Source: Mactromeris polynyma
Lineage: Eukaryota; Mollusca; Bivalvia; Venerida; Mactridae
Direction of reading: 5' to 3'
Assembly (NCBI GenBank): GCA_032209605.1
Contig: JASFXZ010000002.1
Location: forward strand, 58,034,431 to 58,098,430
Length of the DNA: 64,000 nt
Made by a program: the position numbers and the translations under genes. Every line of letters starts with the position of its first letter. Position 1 is the stretch's first letter. Below are positions 9,201 to 47,214 of this stretch, piece by piece. The notes below the pieces were generated by a model. That model made no database searches and was not told the DNA's origin. It saw only the letters and a list, made by a program, of their open reading frames with translations.

Positions 9201-10332
9201 AGAGGCTAACCCTACTGCTTATAAAACAGTGTCACCTCAAACAGGCGTTGATGCTGTTAATCATGTAAGCAAAAGACACAATGATAGTGACAGAAGTTTT
9301 CAGGACACATATTCAAATATTTGTGATAATGATGATAGAAAAACGAGACAGCGAAAGGCAAGAGAGTGCGATGGAGAGAGAAATCAAGTCGCAGCAACAA
9401 GTGACTTAAAACCTAGTGCTCGCTCTCATGGTTACAATTATCGACAAGATTTTCCAGTATTTACACCAATACAGAAACAAAACCCTCTAGTGACAGACTG
9501 TTCTGACAGTCCTGAAATCATATACAATGTTGCACACAAAAAAGCTAGTCACACGAAAAGTAAAACTGGTGGTCATGGAAAAAGCCTCACTTACCAAGGA
9601 AGTGTACAAAGTGATTCTACCAAAACAGAGATGAAACATTTAATGTCTCAAAGATACTGTCCAAGTAATGTGAGTGACTTAAAATCCAACTCAGACATCG
9701 TGAAATCAAAAAAGAAAGAACATGTTGTATCTGTGGATAGAAGAACTAATGTGAGAACGTTATTGCAGGATTTTAAATCTGAAGACTCCAAACATGATGA
9801 TTTCTCATTCAGAGACACGCCACCAGATACTGATAATAAACATTGTAATGCAGCTGGTGGAATTGCTGAAAGAATTGCTCAAATCAACAAGAAACGGAAA
9901 AAGCCTGCCCGGAAAAGCCTCCACTTTCAATATAGTGACAGTGATGTGCAACACATAGAGGAGAGATGTGAAGACAGATATAATGATTTGCGTAGAAACA
10001 GGTCTTTTGTTGGCAACGATACTGAATTGCTACACATACACGACACTAAGGATTCTTTGACAGAAAAGGATGGACTAAGAGATAGATTTAGAAATAGAGT
10101 TCCCCATAAAGAGACTAGAATTTCAAACTATCGCCTAGGAGACTGTGCTGGAGAGCTACATGATAGAGTTACAAATGCTCACATCAGCATGGAGTCAGAG
10201 AGAGATATAAACCCTATGTGTAGGCAGAGATCGTCGGTTAATGCGAGATCTGAGAGAACAAACTTTAGGCGAAAATATATTCCGAAAAATGATACAACAT
10301 TCACCATAGATTTTGAAAGTCCGATACATTAA
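211..10332 (+). CDS. CMGC-family protein kinase, DYRK/CLK-like (3' part of gene, 8 exons visible)
   Basis: Eight GT-AG exons with consistent phases total 1136 codons including the stop: 211-306, 1293-1407, 2705-2826, 3409-3531, 4154-4253, 5474-5557, 6742-6828 and 7652-10332. The reading starts at the kinase hinge (HYCLVFEPML). It continues through the catalytic loop IHTDLKPENILL, the magnesium loop VDFGNAI, the P+1 region TPLYRAPEVMFG, the F-helix DIWSLGCILAELYLGKPLF, and the C-lobe end PEERLTASQAAVHPFF. The glycine loop, catalytic Lys and C-helix lie left of the window. The CMGC assignment rests on the Leu-Lys-Pro-Glu-Asn loop, the WSLGC motif and a C-lobe insert. His-Thr-Asp in place of His-Arg-Asp is typical of CLK/LAMMER kinases, whereas the F-helix reads more like DYRK or HIPK. 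The tyrosine pair of the DYRK activation loop is not visible, so the exact subfamily is open. The catalytic Asp, Asn and DFG are all present, so the enzyme is probably active. Confidence 0.85.
325..568. repeat. 14-bp minisatellite directly after a kinase splice donor
   Basis: About 17 imperfect copies of a unit like CACTCTGCGTTCAC start 18 bp after the exon end at 306. Variation is mostly G/A at CTGCRTTC and small changes at the unit ends. One copy is shortened to 12 bp. The 14-bp period is not a multiple of three and stops are absent by chance, which creates spurious open frames on the plus strand. Confidence 0.9.
780..1150. repeat. Dispersed repeat in kinase intron, ending in ATCTAGTT
   Basis: The stretch contains text typical of abundant molluscan interspersed repeats, with runs such as CTGTCTGTCTGTCC and AACATTTGGTTTCCGAT. 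It ends in CACATCTAGTT. The 3' terminus CTAG followed by T resembles the ends of the unrelated repeat in the C4-like introns (for example 15605-15608). A non-autonomous Helitron-type element is possible, but I see no coding remnant. Confidence 0.35.
1806..2272. repeat. 19-bp minisatellite with TCAAGGTCA / TCAATGTCA variants
   Basis: About 24 head-to-tail copies of GGTCATACTGTTTGATCAA lie in the intron between the exons ending at 1407 and starting at 2705. Copies differ almost only at one position, giving AAGGTCA or AATGTCA, in a mixed order. One copy is 3 bp shorter near 2035. The array ends in a degenerate copy at GGTCCAAGGTCG. It has no spacers and no cas genes, so it is not a CRISPR array. 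Confidence 0.92.
2350..2650 (+). mobile_element. tRNA-derived SINE in kinase intron
   Basis: A tRNA-like head with an A-box-like segment (CAGCGGTCTAGTGGTTGTG) is followed by a B-box-like GCAGGTTCAATCCC. A body of about 200 bp follows. It cannot be a functional tRNA because the stems do not pair. Confidence 0.55.
2985..3190 (+). mobile_element. Decayed SINE of the GTACCGGTT / CAGTCATC family
   Basis: It resembles the better-preserved copies at 4290-4500 and 44120-44340. It has the order tRNA-like head, CTTAACAATCC, an AACCCTGGACACAGTCA-type core and a GTTTCA tail, and is strongly diverged. Confidence 0.4.
4290..4500 (+). mobile_element. SINE (family with AGCAGTCATCAAGAGTGATTA core)
   Basis: A tRNA-like region (GGTGGAGGGGTCAAGG, then GGTCATGGGTTCCTATCC) is followed by CACAATCCCTGAAT and the shared core GCAGTCATCAAGAGTGATTA. 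It ends in TTGTTTCA ... ATGTAGAATCAATAAG. Related copies are at 21230-21365 and 44120-44340. Confidence 0.6.
6105..6320 (-). mobile_element. tRNA-derived SINE (minus strand) in kinase intron
   Basis: On the minus strand an A-box-like GTGGTTGAGGGGTA is followed by a B-box-like GAGTTCCAATCCC. The body contains TGACTCTCAATGGCTTC and GGGTCACTATCCAG. A paralogous copy at about 27625-27830 was carried along in the segmental duplication. Related copies occur at 51815-51975 and 61780-61905. Confidence 0.6.
7652..10332 (+). CDS. Terminal exon of the kinase gene: long disordered basic/serine-rich tail
   Basis: One 2681-bp exon encodes about 893 residues after the kinase domain and ends at TAA 10330-10332. 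The acceptor is ttatattgcag just before 7652. The open frame extends back to 7552 only because the intron end happens to be open. The tail is rich in Ser, Asn, Asp, Lys and Arg, has no recognisable folded domain, and has many short basic clusters such as NKKRKKPARKSLHF that could be nuclear localisation signals. Acidic-serine patches (SDDEEYLEL, SDSPEIIYN) resemble casein kinase or SUMO-interaction sites. Long disordered C-terminal tails are common in CMGC kinases. The tail is absent from the duplicated kinase fragment at 26489-28788, which stops in the preceding intron. Confidence 0.85.
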
Positions 10333-11800: not shown

Positions 11801-11809
11801 ATGGATTGA

Positions 11810-14012: not shown

Positions 14013-14084
14013 TACATGTATCCAATGAAAAACCGGTTTGTAGAGTTTTTGTCATTTCAATTTAGGCAGTCGTTGACCACTGTT

Positions 14085-14719: not shown

Positions 14720-14804
14720 TAAAGGAATTTTGCTTCGCATAGGGATCTCATTCGAATTAAGCCATTTGTGATAAATTGTCATTTTCTGACGTACACACTT
14801 AAAT
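14720..14804 (+). promoter_or_regulatory. Conserved 5' flank of the C4-like genes
   Basis: The 80 bp before the start codon are preserved in all three copies. They include AAGCCATTTGTGATAAA and TCTGACGTNCACACTTAA (TGACGT is CRE-like). The equivalents are about 30555-30617 and 38145-38198. Conservation may simply reflect recent duplication. A core promoter here is inferred. Confidence 0.3.
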
Positions 14805-17800
14805 ATGGCTTCCATGTCTAAAACATTGAACATGTGGATATTGGTAGTATTTTTTTTCTGTTGCGGTAATGGTTTGTTACTAAACACTGATGACGACTTG
14901 CTTTCAGCATATCAAACACTCTCTCAACAGGTAAGCCTGAGATTGCATTGCTGAGTTTCTCTTCATGATCAATGGTTGAGTGGTCCTTGGTTGTTTTCTG
15001 TAAGTTATTAATCCCGTCACGTGTAAGGAGGGGATTAAGGAATGGCCTTCGTCCGTCTGTCAGCCGATCCGTCCGTAATATTTTGTGTTCGCTCTGTACC
15101 GCGTAAATCGCTTGAATGGTTTTCCTTAAACTCGACATCTCATCAAGACGACATACAGTACTGCTACAATCCAAGGTCATGATCACACTGCAATGTCTAA
15201 TGTTCGACCCTTGGCATTTTATGTCCGCTCTGTATCTTCTGAACCGCTTGAAGGTTTTTCTTGAATTACGGTTCAAATGTTCATCTTATCGTGACTATGT
15301 GTAGAACCCATGTCCGTACCGCGACAGCTGAAGGTCACACCGCAAGGTCAAATGTAAAAAGGGGTCTAAGACATCTTGTTCAAACCATAACTTTGTCATT
15401 CAATTTGGTATTTTCAAATACTTGGCATAACTGTTCATTATAATATGGCGGTGTCACGTGCAAGACCTGTGTCTTGCAAAGGCCCAAGTCACATATTGAG
15501 GTCAAATGTAAAATGGGGTATAATGTTGCACTGTATAGCATTATATTAATCTATTATCCTCATGTATTGACAATTGGCGGGCTCGACACGTTACCCTTGG
15601 GTTTCTAGTTAAAATAAATTTCCATAAATGATGATCAAGACGTGATGGTCCTTTATGTATGTGATATGTGGAGGGGGATGCAGCTGTCCTTCATTCTGCC
15701 TTGTTTTATTTTGCACCCTCCGGATCTGCGTAGGAAGCCTTGTTTTGTGGACCATCACGGTGCTTATTCTCATTTACATATTCTCATTTTTCTTGTAAAC
15801 TTAATTACACATTATTGGCAAAGACTTAATCAAGTATACACATTGTATCTAAGTCAAACTGTGCCAGACATACATATGAGTATCTTAAACAACAGTCTCC
15901 CTTGAACCAGTTGGCTGTCGCCATTGACTATATTACATACTTTCTGTAAATGATTTGCACGAAGGCCTATTAGGCAAAAAACGTATGTTCATAGTTATCT
16001 CATTATGACAACATCTTCTCTGATGATTACCACACAGATAGTTCATTAATAGGCCTATAGGATTACGACCTAACATCTCGCATTTAACCCACAATTACTC
16101 GATATTTTCTTTAAGTATAAGATAAGTACACCTTTCCCAATGTGCAATGTTTTCATTTGATATACTATTCATGTTCTTTTCATGTTCTCGGTCGTTAATT
16201 CGAGACATATATCTCCTTATATTGTTTTCCCGGAGGTCTGTGTGGGGAGGCACTGTCTTATGTATGTGGCGTTCCCTGAAGCAACTTATTCTCTCTCTTA
16301 TATATCTCCTTATTGCGACCTAATCATCTCGTATTTAACCCAGAATTACAAGATCTTTTTTTTAGAAACATTTGTGCAACCACGGCATTTACGCAAATTA
16401 TCTGTACATATAACTAAAACTATATTATTAACAGCAAATCACGCAATATATCGATAACACAAGATCATTAACTCCTAATTGCGAGATAATTAGCTCTGCT
16501 GTTTTCCCTGGGGTCTGTGTTGGGGAGGGATTGTCTTATAAATGTATGGGGCGTTCCCTGTAACAACTATCTTATATATGTCTAATGAAATATTTGTATA
16601 CGGTGTAGGTACAGACAATGTCAACCAAGATGGCTTCAATGGAATCTACAATATCCAAGCTACAGGCTGCTCAAGGTACAGGATACTTGTTCGCCAATAA
16701 TTTATCAAGACAACTTATCCGTGACGATTTACAATATCTATAATTATACAGTAACTTACAAGTAGATTGGTGAACAAGATATGATAAAAAAACACTTAAG
16801 ACATGCTGTATCTATTTTGCAAGGATTGACTTCAGCGATTTCATGAGAACGCTAAAAAAATGTTTTAAAAACAACCTACGCATGCACGGAAAAAACTTCT
16901 TTATTACGAAGCAAATTGTCCACGATTTAATACGTCATATTACACATTTTCATATATTAAATGGCATAAATGTGTATAGAGTATAGATTTTCTAAACAAG
17001 ATACTTAAATTGTAGGTCCATCCAGTGTTGGTGCAAATTATGTGAGATGGGGACGAACCACCTGTCCTGCAAATGGAACCACTTTAGTGTATGAAGGTAG
17101 ACATATTCATGTACATAGTTTCTTTTCTAATATATCGATTTATGTCTTATATAAACACAAAATGTCATTTTGTGTATCTCTAACTGGAGTACCATTTCCT
17201 CATGAATTTCAAAGGTTATTTTCCATTAAATATCGTTGTTACACACATTTTAACAACCAGTAGTTCTATTAAGCTTCACTTATTTATAATTTATGTATTT
17301 TCTATGGAAGTATTTTGTCTCATATCATTAACATAACTGTACCTGAAATTTATCTACAGTGGTTTAAATACTATAATATATAATATGTATGCACAACTCA
17401 TATATGGTATTTTGTACGAATGTCTTTTGTAATTTGGGCCGGTGACCCCGTAATACACGGAAATGATAATAACTCTTAATGAATCTTTGACAAATGTGTT
17501 GTAATACTTCTAGTACTGCATACAACAGGGCCATTATAGCACTGTATCACTCGCCTGAGAAAGTTTTCACTTGGCTTATAATAAGTTATATTTCATTTAT
17601 TTACATTCTAACCAGGTTTCATGTAGGTCAGGTAGAAATTATTGAAATCCTACCAATATTTTACTAGTGAAGAGTATAGACTATATTTATAGTGTAAACA
17701 AGTTTATTCTGTTATATGAACTTATGCCCTAGCTTCTGACCCCACATAAACACTTGACCGTTGGTTTAAAAAAGACAAATATTTAGACCAGGTTTCGTGA

Positions 17801-19216
17801 CAATCAGGTAAATCTGCATCCTTTATAGTGTTAACAATGTTTTTCCATCCTATGCCCTAGTTTTTATCCCACTTTACCCGGTTTCAAATTCCGTCAAAGT
17901 TCCATGTAGCTCAGATAGAAAATGTGGCATCTGTGGTGTAAACATGTTTTTTCTACATGACATAATTGCAACCTACATTACACTATTTCCAACGTGACCT
18001 GGACTTTATACACAGACAATATTCTCGGCAGGTTTCGTGTTATAAAGTAGAAACATCAGTCTCTAGAGTGTTAACAAGATTCTTAACGGATTAGGCCTTA
18101 TTACCTAGTTTTTAACCCTAATGTCACACCTGACCTAGAATTTAAAAAGAGAAAAAATGCATTAAATATCCAAAATATCAGGTAGAAAATGCAACCTTTC
18201 CAGTTTAAACATTGTACTTCAATAATATTGACCTAATGTTCAAGTTTTTGACCTCACACACTCCAGTTAAATATGTTTAGAAAGACAACAATTCAGGCCA
18301 TATTCCATGTATATCAGGTAGAAAATATGGCGTATAACATTTTAAAATGGTTTTGTATGATTTGACAAAGTGACCTATTTGTTGCCCCAAACTGACCCGA
18401 TGTTTTAACTTTTCTGAGATTTTAATTTGGCAAATATTCTGACCTTGTGTTATTAGAAATGGGCAAAAGTTGTGACCTCTAAAGTGTTAACAAGCTTGTT
18501 GTTGATGTCGGAACGATGCTGCATGATGATGGACACAGGGTGATAAAAAAGGTCACATTGAACTCTTTATACTCAAGTGATCTAATAAACTGACAAATCA
18601 ATTTTCAAAACAAAAACATAATGAATCGCCAAGTCATATGGTATAGAACATGTTCAAACAAGCATCCATGATCAGTTACTAAATGTAGTAAATGCTTATG
18701 TTGCAGTATTCTGTATATCACACAGGTTATGCTGCTGGTTCTCGTTATACCCAGTCTGGGGGAGCAGCTAACTACTTGTGTTTGCCAACTGATCCACAAT
18801 GGGATTACTATGAAGATGCGATTGCTTCTGGCGGTATAATATATGGGGTTGAATATGAGTTGGGTGATGACCACACCAATGGTGGATCACATTATTTGGG
18901 AAAGAATGTAAGGGATGAGGATGCTCCTTGTGCTGTCTGCTCAACTCAAAGGTCAGAGATTTTGATGATTCCTGCAAGACGTGATTGTTATCCTGGATGG
19001 ACAAAGGAATACAATGGCTACCTTATGTCTGGTCACTACGCCCACGCTTCAGCCACTGAATTTGTATGTGTTGACAAACAAGTGGAAGTGGTTGCAGGTG
19101 GTCATCCAGATCAAGAAGGTCGATTGTTTTATCTGGTTGAAGGTTTTTGTGGTTCACTGAAGTGTCCACCTTATGTAAATGGACGAGAAATCACTTGTGT
19201 TGTGTGCTCAAAATAA
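14805..19216 (+). CDS. Short-chain collagen C4-like secreted protein, copy A (4 exons, intact, 254 aa)
   Basis: Exons 14805-14930, 16609-16675, 17016-17096 and 18726-19216 join in frame to 254 residues. Residues 1-23 form a signal peptide with hydrophobic core MWILVVFFFCC. Residues 28-64 are a short heptad-like helix (LLSAYQTLSQQVQTMSTK) that may mediate oligomerisation. From residue 65 the C-terminal domain runs through YVRWGRTTCP, GGAANYLCLP, VYGVEYELG-like text, DAPCAVCSTQRS, MIPARRDCYPGW, GYLMSGHY, EFVCVDKQ, CGSLKCPPYVNG and CVVC. It has ten cysteines, probably paired. This domain is found in molluscan and poriferan proteins annotated 'short-chain collagen C4-like'. The Gly-X-Y collagen stretch of sponge homologues is absent, so the protein is collagen-related in name only. 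The role is unknown; extracellular matrix or immune lectin-like roles are guesses. AATAAA overlaps the stop codon. Exon 2 is 21 bp longer than in copies B and C. Confidence 0.88.
15008..15608. mobile_element. Dispersed repeat in intron 1 of copy A: hairpin start, CTAG end
   Basis: It begins with a hairpin, TTAATCCC ... GGGATTAA, around GTCACGTG. The interior has degenerate blocks of about 130 bp (CGTCCGTCTGTCAG, CGCTTGAA, AAGGTCACACCGCAAGG). It ends ACCCTTGGGTTTCTAG followed by T, where ACCC/GGGT can pair. Copies occupy the same place in B (30819-31355) and C (38402-39009). The layout recalls non-autonomous Helitron/HINE elements, which is inference. Confidence 0.45.
17560..18560. repeat. Degenerate tandem repeat array (about 130-140 bp period) in intron 3 of copy A
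   Basis: Successive blocks repeat the order GTGTTAACAAG, a short T-rich piece, CTAGTTTTTGACC, 'ACCCAGTT'-like text, GACAAATATT, CCAGGTTTC(A/G)TG, and ATCAGGTAGAAAATG. About seven to eight blocks are recognisable. The same array is in intron 3 of copy C (about 40900-41960) and in truncated form in copy B (34100-34590). Confidence 0.65.
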
Positions 19217-21590
19217 AACATACAGTCTAAATTGAGTATTCAGCCTATATTCCAATAAAAAAACAAAAATACATTGACAATATGTCATAAGACAAAAATC
19301 TACTTCAAACAAAGGCATATTAGGCAAAAACGTATGTTCATAGTTATCTTATTATGACAGCATCTTCTTTGACGATAACCAGGCAAATAGCTCAATAATA
19401 TAGGATAATTATCTTCGTACTACAATATATTTCTCGTTTTTACAACATATGTCATTAGTATGTGAAATATATCTCTTTATTACGACCTAACAACCTAATA
19501 AAGATACTAGCATATACATGTACATATATTTCGACAATGTTATGTATAGGGTTGTCAAAGAATATTCCTACAGTCGAATATTTGTTCGTAGGTCCGAATA
19601 TTGAAATTCTGATTCGGCATTCGAATGATCTCTGAAAGTAATTTGGCAATACCGCTTTGATACAGCAAATAAGAATGAATTTGCAATGTTATCATTAGAG
19701 AATGCTTGTAAGAATAAAGCAGTTAATAATTAGACAAAAATATAAAACTTAAAATTAAAGAGATGAAGATATTTTTAAAGTAAGTAACTAATACACATAT
19801 ACTATGTTTTATAAACAAAGGAAGCTACTTATATCGCTTTATATTACTTCTACACAACGGTTACTATGGCAACTGTTTTTTTCGAATTTACTGGAAAAAA
19901 ACATAACTAGATATGTCATATTATTATGTTAATGTGATTTGGATTTTCTACAAACATTTCTACTGCACACAATATGTACATTTTCAATGTTATTGTATCC
20001 ATTGACACTAAAATCAAAATGAAATAAATTACGAAATTCATAAAAAAGCCCTTTAAAGCATATTTCAAATTGGCCACAAAACAACTTTTGACGTCGGATT
20101 TTGAAACGAAAGTTGTTTTTGTGATCAGGAGATATGCGTCTTTGAAATGCAAGCAAAAAGTAAATTTCGATAAATTTTGCCATTAGCGCCAAAATCGCAG
20201 ACCCTGGCTCATTTGTTATGCCGTAGTAATTGAAAATAATCGAAAAATCGTCGCTAGACATCCGATGTCGACGACAATCAATTATGAACTACAATAATCG
20301 ATTAAAATCGCAAATTGTGACTGAAGTGTTACTTCAAAAACATTGATATTATAAATATTCAAATTTTAAAGTTATAAACCCGGATATACATTCAAATCTT
20401 AAATCTAGTTAATACGTGCACAAAACATCTAGTCAATAATAGTCAATGATTTATTGAACGGTAAAATGTTCTTATCATATAAGAGTTATATAAAACCGCA
20501 ATGAGTTAAAAAAGAGATGAATACATTTGTATAAATGAATTAAACTGTCAATATTATACTTATACTAAAAAGCTAAATATTTCGATTTTTTCCGATTCGA
20601 TTATCGATTATAAGTTTTAAAACTGATCCAATAATCGATTATGAAATTTATCCGATTATCCATCACTTCTTAAAATTAAGCTTGAATAGTGTTGTGACAA
20701 ATAGTGGTTGTGTAGATTCATGTGTAACTAAATATACAAACGTATGCATGCGTACACAAAATACAGCGATACCAGACATATAGTGATGTGAACAAGAACT
20801 CGTAACATGCATTAGTGTGTAAAGAATGACAAAATGGCACAGACAAAAGAAGCGAGTCCTAACACAATGTTTAACCAAGGTTTATGACCTGATAACTTGT
20901 CTGGTACAAATCATTTGCGAGAAGTTACAATGGTTAAGGAGAACAAGCACAGCCAATGAAATTTTATATAATGTTTTATCATTAACGGGCAGTAACTCCA
21001 TCAAAAATCATCCAACCAGAACATGTCGACCATATTTAGGGTTCAGCGCAAGACTATCCTAACTACTATGTATTTAAATAGGAGTAAGTATAGTCTTGCA
21101 CTGAACCTTCGATATGCACAACTAGGCTTGGAACAAATCGTTTGTGTGAAATTTCATGGAAAACAACCAAGTGGAACATACTAATTAAATATGCACAACT
21201 TTCTATGTTTTCATTCGTAATAACAGTTCGGTGAGACCTCGGAGTTAAAAAGACATTAAATTCCGAGTGCGAGTACCGGTTGCTAGCCAGGCAGCAGTCA
21301 TCAAAAGTGATTAGTGTAAATTGTAAGAACTTGTTTCACAATTGATGTAAAATAAATATGTTTAAATATATCAAATCCCAGGTACAAAGTATAGGGGGTT
21401 TGTTAGTATTTGTGAGTCTTTAAGTGTGAACACGATTGTTCCAGGATTATTAAATTTTGCTTGTTACACTTAAATGCCACCACCTAGACTGTAATTCGGT
21501 GAAGGAAGTAGAAAATTAGAATAATAGTCTGACTTTCCATCTCATTATGGTGTCCAGTTTCAGGTATCCTTATTAGCCTAAACTCTAAAT
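19217..21590. other. Flank of copy A, shared in part with the other units
   Basis: It holds repeats of the 'GGCCTATTAGGCAAAAA' type (near 19311, also inside intron 1), an ATTCGAATATTNGTTCG-rich piece (near 19560, also at 35390 and 42890), and ACAGCGATACCAGACATA text shared with 43135 and 35630. From about 19890 to 20660 there is DNA not seen in the other units, rich in AATCGATTAT, perhaps an inserted hAT-like element. No gene is visible. Confidence 0.5.
21225..21370 (+). mobile_element. Truncated SINE (same family as 44120-44340)
   Basis: The 3' half is shared with 44240-44340: GTGCGAGTACCGGTTGCTAG, CCAGGCAGCAGTCATC, TTTCACAATTGATGTAAAAT. The tRNA-like head is missing here. Confidence 0.6.
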
Positions 21591-21991: not shown

Positions 21992-22225
21992 ATGCCACGT
22001 TTGGCGGACGCTCAACGTCATCAGGCCATCGGCATGGTTGACGCCGGACTTTGATTTCGTGAAATTGCACGTCGTATGGGCTGTTCTCACCAGACAATCA
22101 TAAAACTGGTCAGGAGACATGATCAAACAGGGTCTGTGAGTGATAGACCGCGCCCAGGCCGTGAGAAGGTGACGTCGATACGTACACACCGTCACATTAC
22201 CCTCACCCATCTCACTTTTTCGCTA
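21992..22225 (+). pseudogene. Tc1-like transposase fragment with in-frame stop
   Basis: From ATG 21992 the frame reads MPRLADAQRHQAIGMVDAGL, a TGA at 22052-22054, then FREIARRMGCSHQTIIKLVR and RHDQTGSVSDRPRPGREKVT. This is the paired HTH region of a Tc1-type transposase. Nothing of the catalytic domain follows. It resembles the fragment at 12421-12645. Confidence 0.8.
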
Positions 22226-22380
22226 CATCATCGCACAAACCATTCAAATGTAAACTCAGACAGATAATCATTTGGTACAGAGTTTAGACAAAAATGTAGG
22301 TGGTCTTACTTATTGTATACAAATGTAGTTTGTCCCTTGAAGAAGCGTGAGTGGTACGTATTGCACATTTTGCCTCTATG

Positions 22381-25751: not shown

Positions 25752-25979
25752 TGACCACAAGAGTAAAACAAACAATGTCATATACCAAAATCCAAGATGG
25801 CGTCCACGATGGCCGCCGTTTTTTAATATAAATGTATAATATGAAAAAGGCCCTGTAAGTATATTCTTGGATTTTGGGGCCCGCACCAACTTTAGATAAT
25901 TTATGTCGGTGGTCTGATAAACTACAGACCCTGACGAACATTTTGGTATATGACATTGTTTGTTTTACTCTCGTGGTCA
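25752..25979. mobile_element. 228-bp MITE with about 40-bp terminal inverted repeats
   Basis: Left arm 25752-25791 and right arm 25940-25979 are reverse complements with one difference (TGACCACAAGAG against TGACCACGAGAG). The arms share AACAATGTCATATACCAAAA. The interior is non-coding. A target-site duplication is not obvious. Confidence 0.8.
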
Positions 25980-26089: not shown

Positions 26090-26478
26090 CCATTAAAACA
26101 TTATTTTGTAATAATTTCAAGTAAAATAAAATTAGGAAGTCATGTAATAAATCTAACAGATAATCAATTATAACCATGACTGTTTCTGTAAGTTTTTTTT
26201 GTTCTAACATTAGATATCTACTTGGATAAAACTAACAATGCTAATGTATACAATATTTACAAAATAATTTATAGCTATAGTACAGCATTGAAAGGTAGAG
26301 TTTCTTTAACACTTAAAACTGGGATTCATCTTTTATACGTGGTTCATAGATATGCGAACACAGTAACACCACGCTTTGAATTAATATGATGCATATATGA
26401 TAATAGATAATACCAGTGCACTTCAATCATCAAATGAAATACAAACCTTGCAACAAATTGATGTCATAATTTTGCAAT
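26090..26478 (-). pseudogene. Truncated duplicate of LIN52 (intron and part of one exon)
   Basis: About 390 bp align with 45505-46100 of the LIN52 gene, for example ATAATCAATTATAACCATGA and CACTTAAAACTGGGATTCAT. At 26447-26478 it includes the donor end of the LIN52 exon that lies at 46070-46142 (CCTTGCAACAAATTGATGTC on the plus strand). The copy is cut inside that exon. The next LIN52 exon (45393-45476) is missing. It cannot encode LIN52. Confidence 0.85.
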
Positions 26479-27091
26479 ATATGATGTATGTCGGAACAAA
26501 AGGTAGCCGATTATAGTCATCAAAACGAACCTAGGGATTTTCTGTTATCTAGAATTGTTTACAAATCGAAGATAATTTTCTAGGTGATAGTTTTGATCAC
26601 AGATGGGAATGACACTATGAGTCATTAAGCATACTCCAAGAAAGATGTGTTTGTGTATGATTCATGTCAGACAGCGTCACACTCAATAGCATCTGCCTAG
26701 AGTTTTTCTGTGATAGTTGAGAGTTAAATGTTTTACTTCTTGCAAATATGTCAAATTTAGCGAAATAAAAATAATATTCATTGGCTATGATGTCATTCAT
26801 TATCTAATTTGGAATGTTGTTGTAGTTATGACTCATCAGAATTTATAGATTGTGTACACTTTTTGCAGGTACCTTCAGATTGATGGAGTTTATGCAGTGT
26901 AATGATCATAACTTTGCTGATTTGGTATCCGGTATGCTGAGATATAAGCCAGGTTAGTATTTTCTGTGGCTAAAATTCGCCAGGAATGAACATGGTAGGT
27001 ATTCTGGGCCCAGGATTATACTGAATACTTACACTCTGCACTCAAATCACACAATTACTCTTATTAGTCTGATTTTCAAAATTTGAGTGTG

Positions 27092-27215
27092 GAAAATGCA
27101 TGGAAATGTCAAATGAGCGCTTAGAAAATGCATGGAAATGTCAAATGAGCGCTTAGAAAATGCATGGAAATGTCAAATAAGAGCTTAGAAAATACATGGA
27201 TATGTCAAATGTGTG
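27092..27215. repeat. 32-bp tandem repeat, four copies, private to the kinase duplicate
   Basis: The unit contains GAAAATGCATGGAAATGTCA and AATGAGCGCTTA. The parental site at about 5680-5710 has a single copy, so the array expanded after the duplication. Confidence 0.8.
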
Positions 27216-27624
27216 CCAAATATTCCTTTTCGTCCATTTTCATTGAGATTTTGTGGTAATCATAAGATACGGGACAAATTATTGGATTTAAGTTCCACAC
27301 CCGCACTTGTAGTAATTACTCCCAGATCTCACTTTACACTCAAATCTCTTAGAAAAGGGGCCACACAGAACATTGAGCACTCATTTAACATTATTGTATA
27401 CTTTTCAAACTAAACATTATTAGTCATTATCATACTCGTAAGGGTAAAGTTGTTATTTGAGATATGAGTGTAAGTATCCCTTATAATCCAGGGCCCTGGT
27501 TTGAACATTGTAATGTAACTATGTTATTGATTTTTCATTATCAACTTAATTATTCCCAACTGAGACCTATCTTGAGATGGGTTAGTTTAAAAATATTTAT
27601 ATTTCATCGATTGTGACACAGGTG

Positions 27625-27835
27625 TGCAACTTATATATACATGTATTTGACTCTCGGTGGCTGTTTCCTGGGTCACTATCAAGTTCTTGCACGTAAATCA
27701 GGGATTTTGAAGTTTGCAGTTCAAGTTTGTGGTTCAGCCTGGCCCAAAGTGGGATTGGAACTCATGACCTACGGATCAGGAGTCGGGTATTTTACCGCTC
27801 AACCACTTTGCCTTGCAATGAGTTGTGACTGATAA
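27625..27835 (-). mobile_element. Duplicated copy of the minus-strand SINE at 6105-6320
   Basis: It matches the parental SINE at the same relative place in the duplicated kinase intron, with extra bases (GCAGTTCAAGTTTGTG) near 27717. Confidence 0.6.
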
Positions 27836-28790
27836 AGGTGTTTTTCTATCAAGATGTTAACTCCACTTGGGCTGTTTTCATACCAATGATTCCTCGTGTA
27901 TTTCCCTGTATGATATTATATGCTGTCTAGTGTCATATAGTCCAACTACAAGACAAACTGTTGGCATGCTCATATGTTCATGTCTCAAGATTTTGGGGCT
28001 TTAGTGTACTTTGTATATAGCATTTTCTGCCTGACATCATTATTCATCTTTATGGTATCGAGGTTCTTTCTGCAACATGTTTCAGTATTTATGTCATTTT
28101 GTATTGGATTTTTTTGGTTTGAAATCTGATGAAAGTCTTTTGTAATGACATAGAGATTATTTTGTATGTGTTATATATACATATTTTGAATACTGTCAAT
28201 ATATGAATTTTCAGAAAAGAGATTGACAGCATCTCAAGCATCAGTACATACATTCTTTGCTAGTCATATACCTTTAGGATTTCTTACTCCCGGCTTTATG
28301 GTAAGAGTTAAATAATTTTGGAGATTGTATAGAGTTTCTTTGTTAGTGTGAATTACTTTATTTGATAAAGTTTTCTTTCAATAGATCATCTTGACAATAT
28401 AAACTCAATGTTCATATGTAATTTGTATATGTTAAATAATTTTCAAAAAACTTGGCTTATAATTTTACCACACAATATCAACTTGTAGAATGCAACTTTC
28501 GACCATGTCAGTTCATGGTGAAATCCAAGTTCCATATTGATATATTGATTTCAAGGGTGACAGTAATTTAACATTCCTGTGGAATTATCTGTTTTCATAT
28601 TTTGCTAGAATTCTGTGGAGTTTATTTAAGTATTGTTAATACTTTATTGTTTATGAAGAGTTAAGTTGATGGAATTGATTGGCCATTTGACTGATTACAA
28701 GCTTTTGTGGTAATCTAAATCCGAACGGCCTTACTAAACCACAAATATTTCACAGAATAGCATGTACTGATTCAAGTGTGGTGAACCCGT

Positions 28791-29033
28791 GCAAAAATGG
28801 TTGGAAAACGAATAGCAGTATTGCATAAAACTTCGCAGTAAGCTGGATTGTTCTATGAAAGAGATTTTTGCCGAAATTACTCGTGTTTTAGGGTCTGGTA
28901 AGATGTCTTATGAGACGGTTCGTAGATAGAAAAAGAAAGTTGATTGTGTGGTACCAGTCTGTTGAAAATGCAGCAAAATCAGGTCGGCCGGAGACGTGTG
29001 ACAAAAAAATGAAGATAACAGAAAATGAATTTC
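28791..29033 (+). pseudogene. Mariner-like transposase remnant at the head of unit B
   Basis: It matches 14085-14330 closely, including GCAGCAAAATCAGGTCGGCC. It is joined directly to the truncated kinase intron at 28788-28791 and interrupted at 29036 by the Harbinger-like element. It is non-functional. Confidence 0.65.
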
Positions 29034-29036
29034 TAA

Positions 29037-30029: not shown

Positions 30030-30818
30030 TAACCATAACCATTTGTATGTAACAAACCACAATACATTTCGAACATCCCTCGTACTTAAACTAGCAATAT
30101 AAGTTGACAAGGTGCACGAAAAACGATCATATAGATGTTAGAAATGTAGATTACTTTTATCTGGAGTGATGTATTCGCGTCTTTTGTTATTTTTTTTGTT
30201 GTATTAGTAGACACTCGTACAATATTTGTAGAAACTGCTATGACAGAAAGTGTTGCATGGATCAAACAGAGAAACAGAGGAATGTTACATCATTATGCTC
30301 TATGATGTTCAAACAGACAGATTAACAGAAATGTCAAGTAAGACATATTAATATCACAAGGGCAGAATACAACCTGGAGTCATAAAAATGTGTTTACCCA
30401 AGATTAGTATCTAAATGAGGGTAAATGTGTCTTTATGATTCGTCTAAGCCCAGATCTCCATGCAAAATAATGTGTTAAAGTTACGCGTGTTTTGGAGTGA
30501 TCCCGTTTAAAAGTCGTGATAAAGGAATTTTACTTCACATTATAAGAATCTCATTCGAATTAAGCCATTTGTGATAAACTGTCATTGTCTGACGTGCACA
30601 CTTAAAACATAGCTTCCATGTCTAAAACATTGAACATGTGGATGTTGGTAGTATTTATGTTCTGTTGCGGTAATGGTTTGTTACTTCACAATGATGACGA
30701 CTTGCTTTCAGCATATCAGACACTCTCTCAACAGGTAAGCCTGAGATTGCGTTGTTGAGTTTTGAGTTTCTCTTCATGATCAATTGTTGAGTTGTCCTTT
30801 GTTGTTTTCTGTATGTTA

Positions 30819-31355
30819 TTAATCCCGCCACTGCACTGGAGGGGATTAAGGAATGGCCTTCGTCCGTCTGTCAGTCGATTCGTCCGTAATATTTTTTGTT
30901 CGCTCTGTACCGCGTAAATCGCTTGAATGTTTTTTCATCAAATGTTCGACCCTTATCATTGTATATCGGCTGTGTATCTTCTGAACCGCTTGAAGGTTTT
31001 TCATGAATTACGGTTCAAATGTTCATTTTATTGTGACGATGTGTAGAACCCATGTCCGTACCGCGACAGCTGAAGGTCACACTGCAAGGTCAAATGTAAA
31101 AAGGGGTCTAACCATTTGTTCAAACCATTACTTTGACATTGATTTTGGGATTTTCAAAATACTTGGCAAAACCGTTCACCATAATATGACGGTGTGTCAT
31201 TTGCACGACCTGTGTCTGTACCGCAAAGGCCCAGGTCACACTTTGAGGTCAAATGTAAAATGGGGTATAATATTACACTGTATAGCATTATATTAATCTA
31301 TTATCCTCATGTATTGACAATTGGTGGGCTCGACATGTTACCCTTGTGCATCTAG
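30819..31355. mobile_element. Intron 1 hairpin/CTAG repeat, copy in unit B
   Basis: Same element and same position as 15008-15608, shortened by loss of an internal block of about 80 bp. The terminal ACCC/GGGT pairing is partly broken. Confidence 0.45.
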
Positions 31356-32976
31356 TTAAGTAACTTTCCATAAATGATGATCAAGACGGGATGGAGTAAC
31401 GGTCCTTTATGTAGAGGATATGTGGAGGGGATGCAGCTGTCCTACAGTCTGCCTTGTTTTATTTTGCACCCTCCGGATCTGTGTAGGAAGCCATGTTTTG
31501 TGGATATCCATCACAGTGCTTATTCTCATTTACATATTCTCATTTTTCTTGTAAATTGCTAACTTAAGTACAAATTATTGGCAAAGACACATTATATCTA
31601 GGTCAAACTGTGCCATACATACATATGAGTATCTAAAACAACAGTCTCCTTTGAACCACTTGGCTGTCGCCATGACTCTATTATCTACTTTCTATAAATG
31701 ATTTGCACGAAGGCCTATTAGGCCAAAAATGTATGTTCATAGTTATCTCACTATGACAACATCTTCTCTGACGATTACTAGACAAATATCTCATTAATAT
31801 AGGATAATTATCTTCATTCTACACTATATTTACACGTGTTTACAACATATGTCGTTGGTATGAGAAATATATCTCTTTATTACGACCTAACATCTCGCAT
31901 TTAACCCACAATTACTCGATATGTTCTTTAAGTATAAGATAAGTACCCCTTTCCCAATGTGCAATGTTTTCACTTGATATACTATTCATGTTCTTTTCAT
32001 GTTCTCGGCCCAGTATTACTGACTTTCTTGACTTGTTGCGTGATGTATTCCATCCATGATTTTTTCAATCTTGTTGACCCCTTAATTTGTTATTTATGGT
32101 CGGCCAGACCATTCCTTACATCCCTATTTACGTACGTTTTTACCCTTGTAGCTCGACAGTGCCTGATATTTTGTGGACTGCTGTTGTCCCGAGGGTCTGT
32201 GTGGAATGGCATTGTCTTATAAATGTATACATGTGGCTTCCCTCTAACAACTTAACCAACTTATATATGTCTAATGAAATGATTTTATACTGTGTAGGTA
32301 AAATCAATGGAATCTACAATATCCAAGCTACAGGCTGCTCAAGGTACAGGATACTTGTTTTCCAATAATTTATCAAGACAACTCATCCGTGACGATTTAC
32401 AATATCTATAATTATACAGTAACTTACAAGTAGATTGGTGAACAAAATATGATAAAAAAACCACTTAAGACATGCTGTATCTATTTTTCTTAGTATTGAC
32501 TTCAGCGATTTCATGAGAACACTAAAACTAAAAAACATTTGCACGGAAAAAACTTCCGTTTATTACGAAGCAAATTGTCCTCGATTTTAATACATCATAT
32601 TACACATTTTCATAAATTAAATGGCATAAATGTGTATAGAGTATAGATTTTCTAAACAAGATACTTAAATTGTAGGTCCATCCAGTGTTGGTGCCAATTA
32701 TGTGAGATGGAGACGAACCACCTGTCCTGCTAATGGAACCACTTTAGTGTATTAAGGTAGACATATACTTTTAGTTTTGTTTGTTGCATCGAATAATGTC
32801 TTATATGAACACAAACTGACATCTAGCGTACCTCTAAGTGGAGTACCATTTCCTCATGATTTGTACAGGTTATTTTTTCCAATAAATTATCCTTATTACA
32901 CACAGTTTAACAACCAGTAGTTCTATTAAGCTTCGCTTATTTATAAAATTGTGTAATTCTTTATGAAACTATTTAG

Positions 32977-34093
32977 TCACATCACAGTGTATAACCCGAT
33001 GTGACTTCCGCGGAGTGATGTGACTTCGACAGAGGGACACGTTCCCGGCAGGAGAGTAGTGGTATTCGTTTTCTTGTCCATAATTCGTAATTTCGGTGTT
33101 TCTCTATAATCTTTTATCGTCTGAATGACCATGAATGTCTAAATCTACTATAAAACCGATACGAAGCGATGTATGTGCGGAATAAAGCTGGAATCGTCCG
33201 TTTAATATCGACATATAGAAAAAATGAAAAAAATCGCCTTCAACTGATCGATATTAAGCGTTTTGCGATATAATTGAATAGTATCACCCCATATAATAAA
33301 ACATATATCATCTATGAACAAGTATAGCGAGTTGCAAGTCTGTCGGTGCTCATAAACCAACGTTTGGTGCTTCCAAAGGGACCCTGGTATGCACAAATAT
33401 GATGCCGTTTAACGCAGAGGGTATTTTGCAATGATGACGTTTTCGGCTGAGGAACGAAAATTATGGATGTCGTTTTCTGCGGAGGAAAACATATGATAAA
33501 ATGACGAGTGTTTGCTTTTCTAATCGTTTTTATAGCCGGTAAAGCATGAATTGTTTAGAACAATGCATGCCAATGATTATTGTTTCACCAAATTGGGATT
33601 TTCAATGCCATATACTTCTGTAATTCATAAATATTCATATATAAGGCCGTCACTATGTGCATTACTGACTTAAATCATAGAAAATAGTGACACACAACAT
33701 AGCTAAATGCTCAATCAAATCATAGTCTGCATTCTAGTACATTTCCCGGACTATTACGGCATTACCCGTATTTTATACAAGCCTCCAATAATGCAATTTT
33801 TATCATGGAAGGTTAACTCATAGAAATCAGACGATGTGCAAGAATTTATGCAGAAGTATATACGAGCAAGACCTTAGAAAATGTTTTATGGTTTGTTAAG
33901 CAGCATTTGAAAGCTTTCAGAATACTTACACAACTTGTAATATTAATGTCAAGGTAGGAACACAATGTAATAGTGCTAAAAAATCATGCATTAGCGAAAT
34001 CAGATGACAATTGAAAAATGTAAACACATTCTGGTAAATTATAAACAAGCACGAGGCTATTTAATGTACCATAAAACATTTTCTAAGGTATTG
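32977..34093. other. Unit-B-specific insertion in intron 3
   Basis: It replaces about 760 bp of the intron found in copies A and C. It contains a 21-bp inverted repeat (CCTTAGAAAATGTTTTATGG at about 33871 and its complement at about 34071-34091) that may bound a nested 220-bp MITE. No coding remnant is recognised. Confidence 0.5.
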
Positions 34094-35216
34094 CTTAAAG
34101 GATTATGCCTGATGACCTAGTTTTTTACACTAATGTCACACCTGACCTAGAATTTAAAAAGAGAAAAATTTGCATTTTTCCAAAATATCAAGTAGAAAAT
34201 GCAACCTTTCTAGTTTAAACATTGTATTTCATTAATATGACCTCAAGTTGTTTTGACCTCACACAATCCAGTTAAATATTTTTTAGAAAGACAAAAATTC
34301 AGGCCATATTCAATGTATATCAGATAGTAAATATGGCATATAAAGTGTTAAAATGGTTTTGTATGATTTGACAAAGTGACCTATTTTCGCCCCAAACTGA
34401 CCCGATGTTTTAACTCTTCTGAGATTTTAATTTGGCAAATATTCTGACCTTGCGATAATAGAATTGGGCAAAAGTTGTGACCTCTAAAGCGTTAACAAGC
34501 TTTTTGTTGAAGTCGGAAGGATGCTGCATGATGATGGACACAGGGTGATAAAAAGGGTCACCTTGAACTCTTTATACTCAAGTGATCTAATAAACTGACA
34601 AATCAATTTTCAAAAAAAAAATGAATCGCTAAGTCATATGGTATAGAACATGTTCAAACAAGCATCCATGATCAGATACTAAATGTAGTAAATGCTTATG
34701 TTGCAGTATTCTGTATATCACACAGGTTATGCTGCTGGTTCTGATTATAGAGAGTCTGGGGGAGCAGCTAACTCTTTGTGTTTGCCAACTGATCCACGAT
34801 GGAGCTACTACAAGGAGACGGTTGGTTCTGGCGGTAAAGTATATGGGGTCGAATATGAGTTGGGTGATCTCCACAACGACGGTGGATCACATTACTTGGG
34901 AAAGAATGTAAGGGATGAGGATGCTCCTTGTGCTGTCTGTTCAACTCAAAGATCAGAGATTTTGATGATTCCTGCGAGACTTGATTGTTATCCTGGATGG
35001 ACAAAGGAATACAGTGGCTACCTTATGTCTGGCTACTACAGCCACGCTTCAGCAACATAATTTGTATGTATGGACAAACAAGTGGACGTGGTTGCAGGTG
35101 GTCATCCAGATCAAGAAGGTCGATTGTTCTTTCTGGTTGAAGGTATTTGTGGTTCACTGAAGTGTCCGCCTTATATTAATGGACGAGAACTCACTTGTGT
35201 TGTGTGCTCAAAATAA

Positions 35217-36200
35217 AACCTACAGTTCAAATAGAATACTCAGCCTACATTCGATAAAACACAAAGCTACATTGGCAATATGTTATAAGACAAAGATGGG
35301 CTGTAAATGAATCTATGACTTTGAAAATAAAGATACTAGTTAGCGTATAAATATATATTGTCGATGGTATATAAAGGGTTTACAACACCATATTCGAATA
35401 TTGAGTCGGTATTTGAATATTCGATAGAATACTGGAACTATCACTGAAAGTATTTAATACCCCAGCAATACCGACTTGTCAGAGGAAGTAAGACTGTAAT
35501 TTGCAATGATATCATTGAAGAGTGCACGTAAAAATAAAGTAGTTAATAAGTTATATAACAAGACAAACATATTCAACTTAGTTTGAATGGTGCCATGATA
35601 GGTGATGGTTCATGTAAATGTACAAAAACAGCGATACAAAACATACTGAAGTGAGCAAGGTGTACTTAATGATTTACATGCATGAATGTGGTAGGAATGA
35701 CCACCTAGCACATATATAAGGAAATGAGTCTAAACACAATGTTTAACGAATGTCTATGCCCCAATAACTATATTCAAAGCATCCAACCGGAACACGCTGA
35801 TATACACTGTGTTTGGTACAAGTCATTTCTTGAGAGGTTTCATGGAAATCCACCTAGTGGTTTAGGAGAACTAGCACAATGTAATTGTCTAGCATTTTCT
35901 CTCATCAAAGGGTGGTAACTTCATAAAAAGCACGCAGATGGAACACACTAACTAAATGCACAAGTAGGCTTGGTACAAATCACTAGCCTAGGCAAGATGT
36001 GTGTTCTTCTGTGACAATTTGACTAAATATAATGTATCCCAAATCATTTGTCCTCCACCTCTAAACTCTGATTTACGCGGAGATGCGTGCAGACAGACGG
36101 GCATGCTAGTACTGGTTACTAACCCAGGAGTACTGGTTAGGTCAACTGACCGCCGTATATAACTGAAATTATGTTGAGGAATGGCGTAAAACCCAATACA
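35217..36200. other. Flank of copy B, and SINE 3' part
   Basis: It shares text with the flanks of copies A and C, for example GTCTAAACACAATGTTTAAC. From 35995 to 36195 it carries a SINE 3' part (TGTGACAATTTGACTAAA, GTCAACTGACCGCCGTATAT) like that at 13480-13620. No gene is seen. Confidence 0.5.
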
Positions 36201-38198: not shown

Positions 38199-41100
38199 AT
38201 GGCTTCCATGACTAAAACATTGAATATGTGGATGTTGGTAGTATTTATGTTCTGTTGCGGTAATGGTTTATTACTTCACAATGATGACGACTTGCTTTCA
38301 GCATATCAAACACTCTCTCAACAGGTAAGCCTGAGATTGCGTTGTTGAGTTTCTCTTCATGATCAATTGTTGAGTTGTCCTTTGTTGTTTTCTGTATGTT
38401 ATTAATCCCGTCACGTGACAGGAGGGGATTAAGGAATGGCCTTCGTCCGTCTGTCAGTCGATCCGTCCGTAATATTTTGTGTTCGCTCTGTACCGCGTAA
38501 ATCGCTTGAATGGTTTTTCATCAAACTCGACATCTCATCAAGACGACATGCAGTACTGCTGCAATCCAAGGTCATGATCACACTGCAAGGTCAAATGTTC
38601 GACCCTTGTCATTGTATGTCCGCTGTGTATCTTCTGAACCGCTTGAAGGTTTTTCATGAATTACGGTTCAAATGTTCATCTTATTGTGACGATGTGTAGA
38701 ACCCATGTCCGTACCGCGACAGCTGAAGGTCACACCGCAAGGTCAAATGTAAAAAGGGGTCTAAACATTTAGTTCAAACCATTACTTTGTCATTTATTTT
38801 GGGATTTTCAAAATACTTGGCAAAACCGTTCACCATAATATGACGGTGGGTCACGTGCAAGACCTGTGTCTGTACCGCAAAGGCCCGGGTCACACTTTGA
38901 GGTCAAATGTAAAATGGGGTATAATATTACACTGTATAGCATTATATTAATATATTATCCTCATGTATTGACAATTGGCGGGCTCGACATGTTACCCTTG
39001 GGCATCTAGTTAAATAACTTTCCATAAATGATGATCAAGACGGGATGGAGTAACGGTCCTTTATGTATGTGATATGTGGAGGGGGGTGCAGCTGTCCTTC
39101 AGTCTGTCTTGTTTTATTTTGCACCGTCTGGATCTGTGTAGGAAGTCTTGTTTTGTGGATATCCATCACGGTGCTTATTCTCATTTACATATTCTCATTT
39201 TTCTTGTAAATTGCTAACTTAAGTACAAATTATTGGCAAAGACTTAATCATGTATACACATTGTATCTAGGTCAAACTGTGCCATACATACATATGAGTA
39301 TCTTAAACAACAGTCTCCTTTAAACCAGTTGGCTGTCGCCATTACTCTATTATCTACTTTCTGTAAATGATTTGCACGAAGGCCTATTAGGCAAAAAACG
39401 TATGTTCATAGTTATCTCATTATGACAGCATCTTCTCTGACGATTACTAGAGAAATAGCTCATTAATATAGGATAGTTATCTTCATTCTACACTACATTT
39501 ACACGTGTTTACAACATATGTCGTTGGTATGAGAAATATATCTCTTTATTACGACCTAACATCTCGCATTTAACCCACAATTACTCGATATGCTCTTTAA
39601 GTATAAGATAAGTACCCCTTTCCCAATGTGCAATGTATTCACTTGATACACTATTCATGTTCTTTTCATGTTCTCGGCCCAGTATAACTGACTTTCATGA
39701 CTTGTTCCATCCATGAATTTTTAATCTTGTTGACCCCTTAATTTGTTCTTTATGGTCGGTCAGACCATTCCTTACACCCCTATTCACATACGTGTTTACC
39801 CTTGTAGCTCGACAGTGCCTGATGTTGTGTGGACTGCTGTTGTCCCGGGGGTCTGTGTGGGAAGGTATTGTCTTATAAATGTATACATGTGGCGTCCCTC
39901 TAACAACTTAACCAACTTATATATGTCTAATGAAATGATTTTATACTGTGTAGGTAAAATCCATGGAATCTACAATATCCAAGCTAGAGGCTGCTCAAGG
40001 TACTGGATACTTGTACTCCAATAATTTATCAAGACAATTTATCCGTGACGATTTACAATATCTATAATTATGCAGTAACTTAAGTAGATTGGTGAACAAA
40101 ATATGATAAAAAATCCACTTAAGACATGTTATATCTATTTTGCTAAGTATTGACTGCAGCGATTTCATGAGATCACTAAAAATAAAAAAGTTTAAAAAAA
40201 ACGAACATATGCACGGAAAAAACTTCTTTAATACGAAGCAAATTGTCCACGATTTTAATACATCATATTACACATTTTCATATATTAAATGGCATAAATG
40301 TGTATAGAGTATAGATTTTCTAAACAAGATACTTAAATTGTAGGTCCATCCAGTGTTGGTGCCAATTATGTGAGATGGGGACGAACCACCTGTCCTGCTA
40401 ATGGAACCACTTTAGTGTATGAAGGTAGACATATACTTTTAGTTAGTGTTTTGTTTGTTGCATCGATTAATGTCTTATATGAACACAAAATGACATCTAG
40501 CATTAAGTGGAGTACCATGAATTGTACAGGTTATTTTTTCCAATAAATTATCCTTATTACATACAGTTTAACGACCAGTAGTTCTATTAAGCTTTACTTA
40601 TTTATAAACTTGTGTAATTCTTTATGAAAGTATTTAGTCACATATCATTAACAAATCTGTACCTATAATTTATCTACATTGTTTAATTACATATATATGT
40701 AATATTTATGCACAGCTCATATATCTTGTATTTTGTACGAATGTATTTTGGGCCAGTGGCCTTGTGTAAAACATGGAAATGATGAAACCCCTTTATATAT
40801 CTTTGACAAACGTGTAGTAATACTTCTTCTACTGCATACAACAGGGCCAGTATAACACTGTTTCACTCGGCTGAGAGTTTTCACTTGGCTTATAATAAGT
40901 TATATTTAATTCATTAACATTCTAAACATATTTCATGTAGATCAGGTAGAAATCATTGAAATCCTACCAATAGTTTACTAGTGATCAGAATATAGACTAT
41001 ATAGTGTTAACAAGTTTATTCTATTATATGACATAGCTTCTGACCCCACATAAGCACTTGACCGTAGGTTTAAAAAGACAAATATTTAGACCAGGTTTCA

Positions 41101-42733
41101 TGACAATCAGGTAAATCTGCATCCTTTAATTATAGTGTTAACAAGTTTATTCTATTATATGACATAGCTTCTGACCCCACATAACCACTTGACCGTAGGT
41201 GTAAAAAGACAACTATTTAGACCAGGTTTCACGACAATCAGGTTAATCTGCAGCATTTAGAGTGTTAACAAGTTTTTTCCATCCTATGCACTAGTTTTTA
41301 TCCCACTTTACCCGGTTCATATTCCGACAAAGTTCCAAGTAGCTCAGGTAGAAAATGTGGCATCTGTGGTGAAAACATGTTTTTTCTACATGACATAATG
41401 TTCACCCTACATTACACTGTTTCCAACGTGACCTGGGCTTTATATACAGACAATATTCTCGCCAGGTTTCGTGTATATAAAGTAGAAAAATCAGTCTAAT
41501 GAGTGTTAACAAGATTCTTTGACGATTATGCCTGATGACCTAGTGTTTTACACTAATTTCACACCTGACCTAGAATTTAAAGAGAAAAATTTGCATTAAA
41601 TTTCCAAAATATCAGGTAGAAAATGCAACCTTTCTAGTTTAAACATTGTATTTCAATAATATTACCTAATGTTCAAGTTTTTGACCTCACACAATCCAGT
41701 TAAATATATTTAGAAAGACAAAAATTCAGGCCATATTCCATGTATATCAGGTAGTAAATATGGGCTATAAAGTGTTAAAATGGTTTTCCATGATTTGACA
41801 AAGTGACCTATTTTTCGCCCTAAACTGACCCTATGTTTTAACTTTTCTGAGATTTTAATCTGACAAATATTCTGACCTTGCGTTAATAGAATTGGGCAAA
41901 AGTGACCCTCTAATGTGTTAACACTCTTGTTGTTAATGTCGGAACGATGCTGCATGATGATGGACACATGGTGATCAAAAATGGTCACCTTGAACTCTTT
42001 ATACTCAAGTGATCTAATAAACTGACACTAAAAAATGAACGAAGAGCCAAGTGAAATGGCATGGAACTTGTTCAAACAAGCATCTATGATCAGTTACTAA
42101 ATGTTGTAACATTAATGATGTAATTATACTATACTGTTTTAGATAGGTAAATACTCACGAAATTCAATTTTTGCCGAATTCCTGAGTACATTAGGGCCTA
42201 TCTGTAGAATGTTTATGTTGCAGTGTTCTGTATGTTACACAGGTTATGCTGCTGGTTCTCATTATTCCCAATCTGGGGGAGCAGCTAACTACTTGTGTTT
42301 GCCAACTGATCCACAATGGGATTACTACGAGGAGACGGTTGATTCTGCTGGTAAAGTATATGGGGTTGAATATGAGTTGGGTGATCGCCACACCAATGGT
42401 GGGTCCCATTACTTGGGGAAGAATGTAAGGGATGAGGATGCTCCTTGTGCTGTCTGTTCAACTCAAAGGTCAGAGATTTTGATGATTCCTGCAAGACGTG
42501 ATTGTTATCCTGGATGGACTAAGGAATACAGCGGCTACCTTATGTCTGGTGGCTACAGCCAGGCTTCAGCCACTGAATTTGTATGTGTTGACAAACAAGT
42601 GGAAATGGTTTCAGGTGGTCATCCAGATCAAGATGGTCAATTGTTTTATCTGGTTGAAGGTGTTTGTGGTTCTCTAAAGTGTCCACCTTATGTTAATGGA
42701 CGAGAACTCGCTTGTGTTGTGTGTTCAAAATAA
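38199..42733 (+). CDS. Short-chain collagen C4-like secreted protein, copy C (4 exons, intact, 247 aa)
   Basis: Exons 38199-38324, 39954-39999, 40344-40424 and 42243-42733 join in frame to 247 residues. Start, signal peptide (MASMTKTLNMWMLVVFMFCC), helix and the ten-cysteine C-terminal domain match copy A. Exon 2 encodes VKSMESTISKLEAAQ, seven residues shorter than in A and the same length as in B. The C-terminal domain has YEETVDSAGKVYGVEYELG, CYPGWTKEYSGYLMSGGYSQ, and ends ELACVVCSK. No Gly-X-Y repeats are present. B and C share the short exon 2, so they appear more closely related to each other than to A. The function is unknown; the protein is probably secreted and disulfide-bonded. Confidence 0.88.
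38402..39009. mobile_element. Intron 1 hairpin/CTAG repeat, copy in unit C
   Basis: The best-preserved copy. It starts TTAATCCC, perfect palindrome GTCACGTGAC, then GGGGATTAA, and ends ACCCTTGGGCATCTAG followed by T. Confidence 0.45.
40900..41960. repeat. Degenerate tandem repeat array in intron 3 of copy C
   Basis: Same array as at 17560-18560. One block (TAGTGTTAACAAGTTTATTC ... CTTCTGACCCCACATAA) is duplicated near-identically at about 41003 and 41135, which indicates recent unit turnover. Confidence 0.65.
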
Positions 42734-47060: not shown

Positions 47061-47214
47061 CTGAAATATTAAATAGAAGCATAATACATGAATAAGTACA
47101 AATTACAAAATTTTAATCAAATGAAACCCAAAAAAATATGCAAATATGAACATCAATAGTGAATTAATTAAAGTAAAGTAAAATAAAATCAGTGGAATTT
47201 AAGTTAAAAGGTGG

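Follow-up and report, generated by a model that had tools for sequence, protein, structure and literature searches.

Head-to-tail joint of LIN52 and kinase gene fragments within a C4-like gene cluster of Mactromeris polynyma

In the clam Mactromeris polynyma, three copies of a C4-like gene lie between a protein kinase gene and LIN52, and inside this cluster a fragment of LIN52 is followed by a fragment of the kinase gene. How did pieces of the two flanking genes come to stand side by side in the middle of the cluster? The original prediction was that one block, reaching from a kinase intron through a C4-like gene to a LIN52 exon, had been duplicated in tandem. We therefore analyzed the surrounding stretch of 64,000 nucleotides (the window), which lies at 58.03-58.10 Mb on a 58.38-Mb contig of the 793-Mb genome. 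The gene order in the window was the kinase gene at the left (plus strand), the three C4-like copies between, and LIN52 at the right (minus strand), confirming that the two genes are the immediate neighbours of the whole cluster, as had been noted before.

The exons of the kinase gene were located by tblastn with Mactra and Dreissena homologues, and more exons of the gene lie to the left of the window. Its domain is of the CMGC kinase type according to PDB matches, with DYRK3 as the best match, and its last exon gave no match in Pfam. The assembled LIN52 product was 94% identical to Mactra lin-52. Some relatives of the three-copy gene carry the name 'short-chain collagen C4-like', and three C4-like exons searched in Pfam gave no match. 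Among the matches listed, the C4-like and LIN52 proteins of the window were nearest to proteins of Mercenaria, Ruditapes and Mactra. C4-like copy 2 is pseudogene-like. Self-comparison of the window also revealed short tandem repeat arrays at 1801-2274, 49133-49359 and 58879-59152. The coordinates of the features are collected in Table 1, in which unit 1 and unit 2 denote the sequences to the left and to the right of the joint.

Table 1. Positions of genes, fragments, repeats and junctions in the window
Feature	Position	Strand	Evidence or remark
Parental kinase gene	1293..10329	+	tblastn with P0241, P0242; Pfam Pkinase
Parental kinase exons in window	1293.., 2707-2829, 3406.., 4160-4237, 5476-5556, about 6731-6830, 7651-10329	+	
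Dispersed repeat in kinase intron	4953..5427 (widest extent of matches)	.	break at 5035 falls within
C4-like copy 1	14832..19213	+	tblastn with P0003; exons found without in-frame stop
Unit 1 remnant of C4-LIN52 region	21267..21586	.	matches about 44234-44518 and 44715-44744; LIN52 last-exon stretch missing between the pieces
LIN52 fragment, end of unit 1	26134..26477	-	BLAST to 45680-46100
Joint bases TATA	26478..26481	.	pairwise alignments; four bases between the two parental matches
Kinase fragment, start of unit 2	26482..28788	+	BLAST to 5035-7328; tblastn with P0241, P0242
Secondary junction	28789..28789	.	unit 2 without 7329-14083 of unit 1, which holds the last exon of the kinase; flanks separated by one base
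C4-like copy 2	30636..35213	+	tblastn with P0003, P0001; stop codons in two exons
Likely nested-duplication joint	35930..35984	.	21006-equivalent to 13450-equivalent
C4-like copy 3	38226..42730	+	tblastn with P0003; exons found without in-frame stop
Parental LIN52 gene	44567..47070	-	tblastn; five exons found, the one with the start codon not located

The joint and the decay of the broken ends

Self-BLAST placed both fragments on their parents, with all matches in plus/plus orientation. On the LIN52 side, 26254-26477 matched 45875-46100 (85.8% identity, E 1e-69) and 26134-26213 matched 45680-45759 (88.8%). On the kinase side, 26482-27133 matched 5035-5717 and 27188-28788 matched 5683-7328 (80.5% and 81.5%, respectively, with gaps counted). 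Both fragments keep the parental orientation, with LIN52 antisense and the kinase sense at the joint as at the ends of the cluster, in agreement with the prediction, and the joint connects the right end of the block to its left end, head to tail. The proposed correspondence of 26489-28788 to 5042-7328 was borne out with slightly wider limits (Table 1), whereas that of 26090-26478 to 45505-46105 held for the shorter LIN52 fragment given in Table 1 and its wider start was weak (26096-26179 to 45503-45588; 68.5%, E 3e-4).

Alignment at the base level showed that the LIN52 match stops at 26477, equivalent to 46100, and that the kinase match starts at 26482, equivalent to 5035. The LIN52 fragment is therefore cut inside an exon (46071-46142 in the parent), as expected from the earlier estimate of about 26478. 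The kinase fragment is also real, but it starts before the proposed position of about 26489 (parental 5042), and the supposed filler of about 10 bases is reduced to four. The kinase break is intronic, with the exon near 4160-4237 on one side and that near 5476-5556 on the other, and the kinase fragment includes copies of two kinase exons (26871-26954 and 28214-28291). When a 201-base query across the joint was compared with the genome, at least 15 scored matches were obtained, namely the joint itself at full length, both parental sites, and 12 short partial matches, all of which were on the kinase side and extended from the joint rightwards. The check for better matches at unrelated loci covered these 201 bases.

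These 12 short matches are copies of a dispersed repeat present in the parental kinase intron, and the break seems to cut this repeat. Among the 12 other repeat copies, 11 were nearer to the kinase parent (141/217 bases) than to the joint (91/217) over 20 columns on the left side of the break, whereas over 60 columns on the right side the copies matched parent and joint alike (477 vs 487 of 648), so that the copy at 26482 appears to be truncated. When 50 columns left of the break were counted, the difference was small and weak (248 vs 225 of 521, with 8 of the 12 copies favouring the parent), and the reliable extent of the repeat on this side is short. With lax scoring, five of the 12 copies aligned left of 26477 at the joint, compared with 11 left of 5035 at the parent. 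Directly left of the break, ATAT was read in seven of the 12 other copies and GATAT-TGA in four; part of the TATA at the joint may therefore derive from the kinase-side repeat, the parent having since changed.

The broken ends have decayed. The last 10 codons of the LIN52 fragment read LQNYDINLLQ, compared with LENDDINLLQ in the parent, so that two of the ten residues were changed, at positions where the Mactra and Mercenaria proteins agree. The two LIN52 exons downstream of the broken exon were not found in unit 1. In the kinase fragment, the second exon copy was altered at residues common to the parent and Mactra. No chimeric gene made from the two fragments, which are antisense to each other, was evident. 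Near the LIN52 fragment, a stretch of 228 bases (25752-25979) has 40-base inverted repeats at its ends and resembles a small non-autonomous transposon.

Divergence, collinearity and origin of the probable duplication

Divergence from the parents was counted over aligned, ungapped sites; gaps do enter the BLAST identities, which come out lower for that reason (about 81% for the kinase). The LIN52 and kinase fragments gave K2P values of 0.130 and 0.128, with substitutions at 40/336 and 252/2146 sites, respectively, and the remnant of the C4-LIN52 intergenic region differed at 30/284 sites. These three segments were alike in a homogeneity test (p = 0.83). A fourth flank segment, 20670-21264, differed from 43060-43423 at 98 of 352 sites (K2P 0.351); it did not enter the test, and it aligns poorly because the two stretches are of very unequal length. 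Since its divergence greatly exceeds that of the fragments, divergence along the duplicated block is non-uniform. Furthermore, the segment that adjoins the kinase fragment (28790-29036) differed at only 11/247 sites and was significantly less diverged than the kinase fragment itself (p = 0.0002), indicating that unit 2 has been reworked.

Between the block ends, collinear material was present in both units, with deletions, insertions and a nested copy. The remnants at 13450-14335, 20670-21264, 21267-21586 and 26134-26477 were collinear with the right-hand unit. Elsewhere in unit 1, 12241-12531 and 22055-22264 gave weak helix-turn-helix matches of the transposase type, under the Pfam cut-offs, and are possible DNA transposon remnants.

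The order and orientation of the parts, the equal divergence of the two fragments and the collinear remnants thus uphold a tandem duplication running from the kinase intron through a C4-like gene to the LIN52 exon. The prediction needs refinement in four points, namely the four-base gap, the loss of 7329-14083, a nested duplication and exchange between C4-like copies. With these later changes in unit 2, we put the probability of the tandem duplication at nearly 0.9. We infer a single event in which the block running from the kinase intron (5035) through a C4-like gene to the LIN52 exon (46100) would have been duplicated in tandem, by end joining that used no long stretch of homology. The intact kinase gene would have stayed in the left copy and the intact LIN52 in the right copy, and the broken ends, joined head to tail at 26477/26482, would then have decayed as debris. 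Unit 2 would afterwards have lost 7329-14083, a nested duplication would have added a further C4-like copy to it, and the C4-like copies would have swapped sequence.

A head-to-tail joint at arbitrary points would also be expected from an assembly artefact in which the second haplotype of a single-copy block was left beside the first. The breaks do fall at arbitrary sites in an intron and an exon, and the window sits close to one end of its contig, but the two units are not allele-like. Substitutions at about 12% of sites, in DNA that is mostly non-coding, exceed what is expected between alleles, the window contains no N, and the number of C4-like copies is unequal between the units. In addition, the gene copies are not both intact, in view of the conserved residues changed in the LIN52 fragment, the two exons not found downstream of it, and the absence of the kinase last exon from unit 2. 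Because of the high divergence and the decayed fragments, a retained haplotype is very unlikely, and it was rejected. It is harder still to believe that two independent events, by transposition or separate partial duplications, put the fragments side by side. Several other rearrangements in unit 2 and the non-uniform divergence along the block would suit such an origin, but the fragments derive from the genes directly left and right of the cluster, lie in parental orientation four bases apart, are equally diverged and have collinear remnants between them, and on these grounds independent events were rejected.

Unequal crossing-over between repeats at both breakpoints would have yielded the same tandem duplication by another mechanism. 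It would accord with the position of the kinase-side break inside a dispersed repeat, but the LIN52-side break falls within a coding exon. When 351 bases around the latter break (45900-46250) were used as query, none of the 12 repeat copies examined was matched, and self-comparison of the window gave no match between the two breaks. Since homologous sequence at both breakpoints was not found, repeat-mediated crossing-over was rejected, and we consider it as improbable as two independent events. For the tandem duplication, end joining or a replication-based switch is the likelier mechanism, given that no homology common to both breaks was found and that the LIN52 side is coding.

The C4-like copies and the later history of unit 2

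A genome search with copy 3 gave at least 127 matches including copy 3 itself, of which copies 1 and 2 came next (85% and 82%), followed by matches at 64%. A tree built from 22 proteins grouped the C4-like copies of the window together with moderate support (83/75), and the position of Mactra 002045 beside them was without clear support. Because three copies are present, a second, nested duplication is needed. The sequence 35985-36319 matches parts of 13450-14335, which is upstream of copy 1, and comes after a remnant of the downstream flank of copy 2 (35797-35929, matching 20889-21006); the nested-duplication joint is therefore likely to lie in the short interval listed in Table 1. About 1 kb within copy 2 (29037-30029), located between matches to 14339 and 14337 of copy 1, looks inserted, and the insert may be a transposon that produced a short target duplication.

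Intron 1 of copies 1 and 3 differed at 70/1109 sites and was significantly less diverged than the kinase fragment (p = 5e-7), whereas intron 3 of the same copies differed at 103/1000 sites and was not (p = 0.25). A mosaic test used well-aligned columns only (3551 of 6053 kept), with 438 informative sites, and none of 5000 shuffles reached the observed switching of the agreeing pair of copies along the gene. The mosaic stretches were 14400-19700, 30100-35500 and 37700-43000. The mosaic is likely to result from gene conversion or repeated exchange between the copies; uneven constraint could add to the difference in divergence, but it would not readily produce the switching of pairs.

The joint, read as a tandem duplication, shows how the C4-like locus reached three copies, and its debris gives an internal date. 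We tentatively suggest, at somewhat less than even odds, that the locus holds two clocks, with the debris (K2P about 0.13) dating the duplication and portions of the C4-like copies (intron 1, K2P 0.05-0.09) overwritten by exchange, so that they look younger. If this is true, gene conversion in a large family of bivalve genes could be measured against the joint as a dated natural control. The exchange between copies suggests that C4-like copies in bivalves can appear younger than their real age.

Known duplications and the arrangement in other species

In many old tandem duplications the joint has been lost. The present one is the product of a common type of event in ordinary genome evolution, here cleanly preserved. 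Literature searches on C4 with tandem duplication and on bivalve duplication breakpoints found no paper, and a search on 'short-chain collagen C4-like' found nothing on this locus. In the excerpted text of a study of a population sample, 1116 duplications and 76 chimeric genes are reported (PMC5460883). As described there, these duplications resemble the clam joint in that the block ends fall inside genes and gene fragments are united at the joint; they are, however, population variants, whereas the clam joint is old and decayed and its two fragments are mutually antisense. According to the excerpted account of the intelectin locus of 129 mice (PMC3048546), that family, like the clam locus, grew by copying of a segment that carries a neighbour gene, and the neighbour-gene copies are mostly pseudogenes. 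The intelectin segments are described as flanked by retroviral elements, the proposed breakpoints, whereas no homology common to the breaks was found in the clam.

The best kinase match, among the best 120 of 573, was Mactra antiquata ACF0H5_002046, which aligned with 88% of the query at 31% identity (E 5e-69) and whose protein model starts close to where the kinase domain ends. Of the Mactra C4-like proteins among the best 120 of 1267 matches, ACF0H5_002045 came closest to the copies in the window (73%). These two genes have consecutive locus tags on a contig of 58,904,591 bases, and the contig of the Mactra lin-52 record also has 58,904,591 bases. Five Mactra C4-like proteins were among the same best 120 of 1267, and only 002045 was near the window copies, the others being at 62% or less. 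In the tree, 002952-002954 grouped with another pair of the window's own genome (97/94); 016758 (50%) was left out of the tree. Judged by locus tags and contig sizes rather than by DNA, Mactra antiquata probably shows the single-copy ancestral arrangement, and would then be roughly the outgroup that the original prediction called for.

Kinase and lin-52 were on equal-sized contigs, which we take to suggest the same contig, in Mactra, Mya, Dreissena and Lingula (a contig of only 126,486 bases in Lingula) and not in Potamilus, that is, in four of the five species that occurred in both lists (best 120 of 755 lin-52 matches and best 120 of 573 kinase matches) with a kinase match of at least 15% of the query. 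In Acipenser, the sixth species in both lists, the kinase match was DYRK4, covered 8% of the query and was on another contig. The C4-like match and lin-52 of Mercenaria were on contigs of unequal size (120,499,105 and 121,110,697 bases), which either is contrary to the model or reflects separate assemblies. The other C4-like pair of the window's genome (L015 and L016), near 17.64 Mb of the window's contig, grouped with the three Mactra genes of consecutive tags, and this cluster is therefore probably older than the split from Mactra.
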